Shown here piece by piece: positions 14,844 through 32,759 of a DNA stretch of 64,000 nt. The position numbers and the translations under genes were made by a program. How positions within the stretch are numbered: the stretch's first letter is position 1; each line of letters starts with the position of its first letter. The stretch spans positions 1 to 64,000 of the forward strand of contig NZ_JMLH01000003.1 of the NCBI RefSeq assembly GCF_000686665.1, given 5' to 3'. Source of the DNA: Thomasclavelia saccharogumia DSM 17460 (lineage in GTDB: Bacteria; Bacillota_I; Bacilli_A; Erysipelotrichales; Coprobacillaceae). A model generated the notes under the pieces. It worked only from the letters and a program-made list of their open reading frames with translations, was not told where the DNA came from and searched no databases.

Positions 14844-14872
14844 AAAAAGAGTTGTATCAAAACAACTCTTTA
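14844..14872 (-). terminator. tkt terminator
   Basis: Stem AAAGAGTTGT / ACAACTCTTT overlapping the tkt stop codon, with T-rich sequence following on the minus strand. Confidence 0.75.
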
Positions 14873-16846
14873 TAAGATTTCTTTAATATTTTTAATAACA
14901 TTTTCCACTGTGAAACCATAGTTTTCAATTACTACATTAGCTGGTGCACTAGCTCCAAATTTACTTACTGACATTGTTTTACCATCTAATCCAACATATT
15001 TATGCCAGCCAAAATCACTAGCCATTTCGATTGCTAAACGAGCTCTTACATCATTAGGAAGAATCGATTCTTTATAAGCTTTATCTTGTTCTTCAAACAA
15101 TTCCATCGATGGCATCGAAACTACCCGAACATCGATATTTTCTTCTAATAAAGCTGCTTTAGCTTTCATTGCTAGATTTACTTCACTACCAGTAGCGATA
15201 ATTATTGCATCAAGATGATCGACTTCTTTACCAACGATATAAGCACCCCTGCTTACTCCTTCATATGAAGTATTTTCCATTGTCGTTACATTTTGTCTAG
15301 TTAGAATCAATGCTGTTGGTTTATTAGTAGATTCGATTGCTAATTTCCAAGCCGCTGCCGTTTCGATTGCATCTGCAGGTCTTAATACCCGAATGTTTGG
15401 TAAAGAACGAAGCATTACTAACTGTTCAATTGGCTGGTGTGTCGGTCCATCTTCTCCTACAGCAATTGAATCATGTGATAAAGGAATTATGATTGGCAAT
15501 TCCATTAAACAAGACATTCTTAATGCTGCTTTAAAATAATCAGAGAAAACTAAGAAACCACCTGCTGATACTTTGATTCCTGTATGTAAGGTAATTCCAT
15601 TCATCATGGCAACCATAGCAAATTCACGAATTCCAAAAACTAAATTACGCCCATCATAATTTTCAACGCTAAAAGCATTTTCATTAGCGATTTCCGTTTT
15701 TGTTGAACAAGCTAAATCAGCAGTTCCTGACATAAATGTAGGATTTTGTTTAGCTGCTTCCTGAATTAATTGTAATGAAGTATTTCTTGTTGCATCATTG
15801 AAACCAGGTTTGTAATTTTGGATGATTTCTTCAATATCTAAACTGTATTTTCCATCAATTGCATCTTTTAATTCTTGAGCTAATTCAGGAAATTCTTTTT
15901 CATAATTTTTAAATAAACGCTGCCATTTATTATAACGATTTTTACCACGTTTAATACAACTATTTGCAAAATCGTCATAAACTTCTTCAGGAACATAAAA
16001 TTCCTCATGATCAAATCCATAAGATAATTTAGCATTTCTACCATCTTCTTTGCCTAAAGGACTACCATGTACCTTGTTTGTTCCCTGATTACTTGATCCA
16101 TAACCAATAACAGTATTAACAATGATCAAAGTAGGTTTATACAATTCCTTTTTACCTTTACGGATTGCTTTTTGAATATCATTAATATTATTACCATCTT
16201 TAACATTGATTACCTGCCATCCAATTGCTTCATAACGTTTTTTTACATCTTCACTAAACGACATTGATAAAGGACCATCAAGAGTAACTTGATTAGCATC
16301 ATATAAAACAATTAATTTTCCAAGTGAAAGATGTCCAGCAAGTGAAGCAGCTTCATAAGTTACCCCTTCTTGCATATCACCATCACCACATAATGCAAAT
16401 GTATAATGATCAACAATATCATAACCATCACGATTATATTTAGCTGCTAAAAACTTTTCTGCTAAGGCCATTCCAGCAGCCATTGGAATTCCTTGTCCTA
16501 AAGGACCAGATGAAGCATCTACACCATCAGTAAGATTGCATTCAGGATGTCCTGGTGTTGTCGAACCCCATTGTCTAAAATTTTTTAAATCATCCATTGA
16601 GATCTGATATCCTGATAGATGTAACATTGTATACAATAACGCTGAAGCATGCCCTGAAGCTAAAACAAATCGATCTCGATTAAACCATTTTGCCTGCTTA
16701 TGGTAAAAATTCATTTCTTTAGTAAATAACGTATATACAGCAGGTGCTGATCCTAAAACCATTCCAGGATGCCCAGAATTAGCTTTGTTGATAGTATCAA
16801 TGCCTAAAGCACGAATTGCTGCAATTGATAAATTCGATGTTTCCAT
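14870..16846 (-). CDS. tkt: transketolase
   Basis: Thiamine-diphosphate enzyme (658 aa) moving two-carbon ketol units in the non-oxidative pentose phosphate pathway. Full-length: N-terminal GHPGMVLGSAP and HASALLY, the ThDP/Mg motif GDGDMQEGVTYEAASLAGH near 155, then the pyrimidine-binding domain with FGIREFAMVAMMNGI near 405 and HDSIAVGEDGPTHQP near 465, and a C-terminal domain (VSMPSMELFEEQ). Its neighbours ynzC upstream and sirA/yneF downstream repeat the B. subtilis order. AAGGAGAATTAGAAATAA-like bases upstream supply the ribosome-binding site. Confidence 0.96.
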   Translation of the reverse strand: METSNLSIAAIRALGIDTINKANSGHPGMVLGSAPAVYTLFTKEMNFYHKQAKWFNRDRFVLASGHASALLYTMLHLSGYQISMDDLKNFRQWGSTTPGHPECNLTDGVDASSGPLGQGIPMAAGMALAEKFLAAKYNRDGYDIVDHYTFALCGDGDMQEGVTYEAASLAGHLSLGKLIVLYDANQVTLDGPLSMSFSEDVKKRYEAIGWQVINVKDGNNINDIQKAIRKGKKELYKPTLIIVNTVIGYGSSNQGTNKVHGSPLGKEDGRNAKLSYGFDHEEFYVPEEVYDDFANSCIKRGKNRYNKWQRLFKNYEKEFPELAQELKDAIDGKYSLDIEEIIQNYKPGFNDATRNTSLQLIQEAAKQNPTFMSGTADLACSTKTEIANENAFSVENYDGRNLVFGIREFAMVAMMNGITLHTGIKVSAGGFLVFSDYFKAALRMSCLMELPIIIPLSHDSIAVGEDGPTHQPIEQLVMLRSLPNIRVLRPADAIETAAAWKLAIESTNKPTALILTRQNVTTMENTSYEGVSRGAYIVGKEVDHLDAIIIATGSEVNLAMKAKAALLEENIDVRVVSMPSMELFEEQDKAYKESILPNDVRARLAIEMASDFGWHKYVGLDGKTMSVSKFGASAPANVVIENYGFTVENVIKNIKEIL

Positions 16847-16934: not shown

Positions 16935-17165
16935 TTAATTTTTTGATTTTTCATCTTTTAATTTTTTTGGAGTTACATCATTTCCTTTTGTATCAACTAC
17001 TTTGATTGTCATTAACTGCTGTTTAAAACCACTTCTAAAAGCTTTTAAATACTCCTGACGTAATTTTTCTTGTTCTTTCAACTCAGCTGGAGTGATACTG
17101 CCATCCTTTTTCTTTTTTGCCAGTTCATTAATTCTAGTAATTAATTTTTGATCTATACTACTCAT
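16935..17165 (-). CDS. ynzC: YnzC/DUF896 family protein
   Basis: Small cytosolic protein of 76 aa, belonging to the DUF896 (YnzC) family of helical-hairpin proteins. The family core is clear: IDQKLITRINELAKKKKDGS, then TPAELKEQEKLRQEYLKAFR. The tail is lysine-rich and acidic. The biochemical role is unknown. In Bacillus the gene is between the SOS genes yneA/yneB and tkt; here lexA and yneA are absent and the gene is preceded by a structured RNA. The ribosome-binding site (AAGGAG, minus strand near 17171-17176) lies only a few bases after that RNA's U-run. Confidence 0.9.
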   Translation of the reverse strand: MSSIDQKLITRINELAKKKKDGSITPAELKEQEKLRQEYLKAFRSGFKQQLMTIKVVDTKGNDVTPKKLKDEKSKN

Positions 17166-17181
17166 TGCCTTTCTCCTTGTA

Positions 17182-17338
17182 TAAAAAAAGGTAGAGAGTT
17201 TTAGATATTTCCCTGTTTTGTACAGGTGGGTACCTTTAAATACACTTTAGGATCCCTATTCTAAGATAGGTCTTCAACACCGCAATTTAAATCAGGTTCC
17301 CTTATCTATGATGTGGAAATTTATTTACTCTCTAACCA
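17182..17338 (-). ncRNA. ssrS: probable 6S RNA
   Basis: A transcript of about 157 nt is predicted from a near-consensus promoter to a U7 run. The folding fits 6S RNA, which binds the housekeeping RNA polymerase. A closing stem (GGTTAGAGAGT with ACTCTCTACC) is followed by AAATTTCC with GGAAATAT. An open central bubble carries a small hairpin on its 3' side (CCTGT/ACAGG). Then comes a long upper stem (GGGAACCTGATTTAAAT with ATTTAAAGGTACCC) capped by another hairpin (CCTAT/ATAGG). No T-box, SAM or TPP signature is visible. The alternative is a leader regulating ynzC-tkt, because ynzC starts right after it. Confidence 0.65.
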
Positions 17339-17343
17339 AGGTT

Positions 17344-17371
17344 ATTATAACATAAGCATGACAAGTGTCAA
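17344..17371 (-). promoter_or_regulatory. sigma-A promoter of the 6S-like RNA
   Basis: TTGACA (17371-17366) and TATAAT (17349-17344), both perfect consensus, spaced 16 bases. Expected start is near 17337, at the 5' strand of the closing stem. Confidence 0.85.
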
Positions 17372-32631: not shown

Positions 32632-32759
32632 ATGATAAATTATTTGTATTTTTTGAGTCCCATTTAAAAAATATAAGCTCTTTATTTACTATATTTATAT
32701 GAAATTCCAGTGAATCAGATCGAGTATAGTTTTGTTGCCAAATACTATCTCCATTGCTC

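Follow-up and report, generated by a model that had tools for sequence, protein, structure and literature searches.

The minus strand of the 64-kb window examined here (64,000 nucleotides of Thomasclavelia saccharogumia, the whole stretch of DNA that was analysed) carries a strong promoter and a structured RNA directly ahead of ynzC. The locus raises the question whether this RNA is a 6S RNA, a leader of ynzC, or both. We propose, with a probability of roughly 0.8, that it is a decoy-type 6S RNA with its own terminator, and that a minority of transcripts would read through and thereby make the 6S RNA the untranslated leader of ynzC. The features concerned are listed in Table 1.

Table 1. Features of the 6S-ynzC-tkt locus (positions in the window)
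Feature	Position	Strand	Remarks
-35 element TTGACA of 6S promoter	17366..17371	-	promoter scan
-10 element TATAAT of 6S promoter	17344..17349	-	promoter scan
6S RNA gene	17183..17337	-	about 155 nt; 5' end placed by promoter spacing
Closing helix, 5' arm	17327..17337	-	helix 1; 8 of 9 pairs with compensatory changes, 97.7% of cells paired
Central bubble, 5' strand	17302..17318	-	columns nearly invariant; unpaired in consensus
3'-side hairpin CCUG-N7-CAGG opposite the bubble	17212..17226	-	single-sequence fold and consensus
Closing helix, 3' arm	17190..17199	-	RNAalifold consensus and covariation count
U7 run right after closing helix	17183..17189	-	sequence; probable termination site
ynzC ribosome-binding site AAGGAGA	17172..17178	-	SD AAGGAG begins at 17178, 4 nt past the U-run
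ynzC, DUF896 (PF05979), 76 aa	16935..17165	-	E 1.3e-29; ATG at 17165; the genome's only DUF896 gene
tkt, transketolase	14870..16846	-	probably own promoter; GTGTATAAT ahead of tkt

Results

In a 601-base search, the Rfam 6S model RF00013 matched positions 17338-17188 over its full length (model positions 1-187) with 37.7 bits and E 4.2e-6; genome-wide the match has E 5.2e-6. The gathering score of RF00013, an annotation cut-off rather than a biological feature, is 46.4, and since the match stays below it, 6S RNA is absent from the output of a default Rfam scan of the window. The sole match of that scan is a pan motif (RF01749) elsewhere, at 32651-32751 on the minus strand with 37.6 bits against a cut-off of 36.2; it precedes the ORFs 32606-32172 and 32112-31273, which we take to be panD and panC. 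Among the 43 genomes of the family Coprobacillaceae, 40 have an RF00013 match and 24 exceed the gathering score. A covariance model made from 24 family sequences, excluding the genus of this genome, matched 17185-17340 with 141.4 bits (E 3.8e-26, genome search). Neither model found another 6S gene in this genome: RF00013 has a single match, and the next match of the hold-out model has an E-value of 3.0. Four other Rfam families considered at the locus (freshwater-2 and three others) are at chance level (E 1.8 to 4.3). The full-length Rfam match, the uniqueness in the genome, the hold-out model and the covariation described below support the identification of 17337-17183 as a 6S RNA, the only one detected in this genome. 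This agrees with the earlier note, which had called the RNA a probable 6S RNA and had considered that a second clear 6S gene would weaken its case.

The promoter at 17371-17344 agrees with TTGACA-16-TATAAT in 12 of 12 positions, as the earlier note had read it, and a TG precedes the -10 region; by its sequence it corresponds to the sigma-70/A-type consensus that is looked for in 6S genes. While it is the only perfect TTGACA/TATAAT pair in the window when spacers of 16-18 are allowed, 0.23 are expected by chance and at least one occurred in 22 of 100 shuffles, so that the promoter is not decisive alone. The 6S promoters of the relatives match on average 11 of 12 positions (at least 10 in 33 of 39 genomes, all 12 in 13 of 39). 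The transcript probably starts near 17337, and its length of about 155 nt comes close to the 157 nt previously estimated.

The predicted single-sequence fold (-37.4 kcal/mol) consists of a closing stem, an open central strand on the 5' side, a 3'-side hairpin and an upper arm. This is the 6S architecture that had been recognised before, and the consensus of the relatives agrees with it. The z-score of -2.1, with 6 of 200 shuffles folding as well, is modest evidence, and the identification therefore rests on homology and covariation. For 39 sequences from relatives (38 distinct), aligned with plain MAFFT, the RNAalifold consensus comprises 30 pairs, of which 16 show compensatory changes; 97.9% of the cells of these pairs are paired, and changes on both sides occur in 132 cells compared to 41 in shuffles. 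None of 500 shuffles reached any of five measures, and sliding the partners by 1-3 columns lowered the pairing to 27-58% of cells. Closing stem, open bubble and upper arm, as expected of a 6S RNA, thus occur together with covariation among relatives, the check that the earlier note had suggested. Most of the covariation sits in the closing helix, whereas the 3' hairpin (helix 7, with 97.4% of its cells paired) and the base of the upper arm hardly vary and, being neutral, lend no covariation support. The 5' strand of the central bubble is probably the template for product RNA. As read from the alignment, no product RNA start in the genus combines the GG 4/5 or 5/6 rule with the upstream adenine of PMC8414754.

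Searches with tblastn placed ynzC on the same strand directly downstream of the 6S RNA in each of the 39 family genomes that could be tested, which include all 18 genera that could be checked. Of the 43 genomes, G008, G009 and G015 were set aside because they have no RF00013 match, and G020 because its contig ends past the 6S RNA. The distance between the end of the closing stem and the ATG of ynzC has a median of 23 nt, and 33 of the 39 genomes fall between 17 and 28 nt. In G018 the pair is kept although tkt and ymfH are in opposite orientation. One ORF finder, used for all loci, reported a same-strand ORF at most 45 nt behind the 6S RNA in 34 of 39 loci, compared to 0 of 26 for tmRNA and 0 of 29 for RNase P RNA, the two RNAs to which this control was confined (short flanks removed 4 of 30 tmRNA and 1 of 30 RNase P loci; 7 more over-cut-off tmRNA matches and 11 more RNase P matches were omitted). 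At one 6S locus the ORF finder gives an ORF 320 nt off, while tblastn puts ynzC closer. The link is not called into question by the three genomes that have no 6S match, since in G008 ynzC begins at base 4 of its contig (a 6S model matches only weakly in this genome, E 0.15) and G009 and G015 are without both 6S RNA and ynzC. Second 6S copies in one genus (L119, G019:C1:2887660-2887811, and L120, G020:C290:1735-1885) have no ynzC nearby, so the 6S RNA does not require the link.

Outside the family the link was not seen. The sister family f2 has kept the 6S RNA, with ynzC adjoining in 0 of 21 loci, and of the 47 loci from the rest of the class, a single one has ynzC near the 6S RNA, at a distance of 396 nt and on the other strand. 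The class scan for ynzC covered 68 loci, leaving out L049 (replaced by L109) and L060, and distances were counted for 66 of the 68, L047 and L069 having uncertain offsets. Approached from the other side, 80 named ynzC loci include 9 from the family, all with a 6S RNA in front; these belong to the 43 genomes already considered and are no independent sample. Near ynzC at the 71 loci outside the family, the 6S model gave no significant match (best E 0.22), and an Rfam scan of 40 of these 71 at gathering scores listed no 6S RNA.

Elsewhere in the class, too, a same-strand ORF often follows the 6S RNA closely: by 55 nt or less at all 11 loci of family f12, by 43 nt or less at all 3 loci of f10, and by 60 nt or less at 8 of the 21 loci of f2 but none of the 7 of f9. 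The partners found elsewhere in the class include ThiF-like proteins, UPF0154 (yneF), transketolase (one f19 genome) and arginyl-tRNA synthetase. As this neighbour survey lacks a null for the genomes concerned, we treat it as a lead: the leader position of the 6S RNA may recur in the class while the partner gene changes. At the f12 loci L055, L057, L058, L066, L067, L070, L071 and L100, the 6S RNA stands directly ahead of a ThiF-like gene, one of these calls being confirmed by Pfam and the others by similarity of the printed N-termini. In f2 it often precedes yneF (L074, L076-L078, L080, L081, L083-L086). Since yneF lies just beyond tkt in our window, the 6S RNA may have moved within a ynzC-tkt-yneF neighbourhood. 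Tandem 6S arrays occur in other families of the class, with six copies in G111:C113:11954-13392 (L109), four in G087:C1:982835-984425 and three in G093:C1:1772223-1772998.

The U7 run stops 4 nt before the ribosome-binding site of ynzC, the close join of a few bases pointed out in the earlier note. At least 6 T within the first 10 nt past the closing stem are found in 35 of 39 relatives, and in most of them the closing helix with its U-run is the sole terminator-like element. A simple terminator scan reported no short-loop hairpin at the locus, since here the long-range closing helix itself forms the stem ahead of the U-run. Members of genus g12 have a longer gap (63-117 nt) between 6S RNA and ynzC. 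Two of them, G022 (L019) and G024 (L016), no longer have the U-run and instead show a hairpin of its own, with a T-run, ahead of ynzC. This swap is a natural experiment on termination and, though confined to these two genomes of a single genus, agrees with a terminator role of the U-run in the other relatives. In G018 and G025, where the U-tracts are weak, termination may work otherwise.

The earlier note had also seen no separate promoter for ynzC. We found none here, and in 35 of 39 relatives none stands out either: the best promoter-like site inside the 6S RNA or the gap scores on average 7.28, compared to 7.79 in shuffles. A ynzC promoter inside the 6S RNA was discarded on these scores; G011 alone reached 10, at 110 nt upstream of the ATG. 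For most relatives this leaves the 6S promoter or read-through from ymfH. An efficiently terminated 6S RNA could consequently stand beside a ynzC that is transcribed from elsewhere, by ymfH read-through or from an unrecognised promoter, the adjacency being inherited and without function. Genus g12 speaks for separate transcription, as TTGACT-16-TATGCT precedes ynzC in G021, G023 and G024, and the gap of G022 contains these hexamers too, although the scan chose another site there; the second 6S copies and the other families, where the 6S RNA exists without ynzC, would suit a functionless adjacency. We nevertheless consider this reading unlikely, though it keeps some weight, because the promoter signal is not above shuffles in most genomes, the spacing is conserved and the pair persists where the neighbours have changed.

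The suggestion that read-through might extend into tkt has weakened. The box GTGTATAAT is found ahead of tkt in 11 of 12 printed ynzC-tkt gaps, G041 being without it in the stretch printed, and tkt probably has its own promoter with this conserved -10 box, which makes a co-transcription of 6S RNA and ynzC with tkt doubtful. By eye, a hairpin with a T-run follows ynzC in G036, G039 and perhaps G041.

Discussion

According to the reading that we prefer, a strong sigma-A-type promoter would give rise to a transcript of about 155 nt. This RNA takes the 6S fold and, by homology with known 6S RNAs, would bind the housekeeping RNA polymerase holoenzyme as an open-promoter decoy. The closing helix together with U7 would form an intrinsic terminator, at which most transcripts would stop as 6S RNA, while a minority would continue for about 20 nt into ynzC. 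Since ynzC has no other evident promoter, 6S RNA and ynzC would make up one transcription unit with the 6S RNA as untranslated leader. The analysis shows the 6S homology, the covariation, the single copy, the adjacency and spacing throughout the family and the lack of a better promoter; that the RNA binds polymerase and templates product RNA, that transcripts end at U7 and that some of them reach ynzC is inferred.

With its closing stem, large 5' central bulge, opposing hairpin, long upper arm and sigma-A-type promoter, the RNA resembles the 6S-1 type of Bacillus subtilis (RF00013), a layout that passages of PMC8414754 describe for lactic acid bacteria and B. subtilis 6S-1 alike. Unlike this type, it is short, stays below the Rfam cut-off and bears the U-run on the closing helix itself, and throughout the genus its central bubble has lost one base (UUUCC-ACA versus UUUCCUACA). 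The arrangement with ynzC has a known parallel in the ssrS-ygfA unit of gamma-proteobacteria, for which parts of PMC2848244, PMC7641849 and PMC4064990 describe a 6S RNA in the 5' untranslated region, co-transcription and a long conserved linkage. Here, too, the 6S RNA lies directly upstream of a protein gene on the same strand in every testable genome across the genera, with a joint transcript predicted. As the downstream gene is ynzC/DUF896 and not ygfA, the locus may work like an ssrS-ygfA unit but is not a member. For E. coli, Rho-dependent termination and processing are reported, whereas at our locus the closing helix would provide an intrinsic terminator. In Streptococcaceae, the 6S RNA is probably on one primary transcript with tRNA-Lys, according to passages of PMC8414754; the next gene likewise probably shares the 6S transcript at our locus, the partner being a tRNA there and an mRNA here. 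The same passages mention that lactic acid bacteria have kept the 6S RNA beside rarA and uspA. While the 6S RNA itself is of a known kind, the tight family-wide arrangement with ynzC was not found described; our search covered open-access literature and does not establish absence from print. The view of the earlier note that the arrangement is unusual is only partly borne out, given the proteobacterial parallel.

In a read-through mRNA the U-run could pair with the ynzC ribosome-binding site and keep ynzC translation low, and the fold of 17338-17130 indeed pairs CCUUUUUUU with GGAGAAAGG. However, such a pairing is expected for any U-run near a purine-rich ribosome-binding site, its energy is weak here (-0.9 kcal/mol), the z-scores scatter and several relatives are without the structure, which renders this role improbable. 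Riboswitch-like masking of the ribosome-binding site was likewise tried and found unsupported. It is also improbable, the sensing step being speculative, that the 6S leader works both in cis and in trans, with read-through into ynzC reporting the level of free polymerase: capture of the nascent 6S RNA by free holoenzyme, or its refolding by product RNA, would then affect the formation of the closing helix that precedes the U-run. If this were true, the 6S RNA would be a global brake and at the same time a sensor for its own operon partner. A leader that acts on ynzC in cis only (riboswitch-like or as an attenuator), with no 6S RNA acting in trans, would suit an RNA directly ahead of ynzC and its ribosome-binding site, but is very improbable in view of the full 6S model match, the conserved central bubble, the same RNA away from ynzC in G019 and G020 and with other neighbours in sister families, and the lack of a consistent masking structure among relatives. 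What stands of the leader idea in the earlier note is the arrangement, with ynzC in 39 of 39 genomes, tight spacing and internal promoter scores no better than those of shuffles.

The 6S RNA identified here is overlooked by default annotation, and the model derived for its family, which consists of gut bacteria, is backed by covariation. Read as a 6S RNA with its own terminator and a minority of read-through, the locus would provide a Gram-positive counterpart of ssrS-ygfA, in which the 6S RNA is placed as leader of a DUF896 gene. Since expression of ynzC is probably tied to that of the 6S RNA, the locus would offer a direct way to ask for the function of ynzC.
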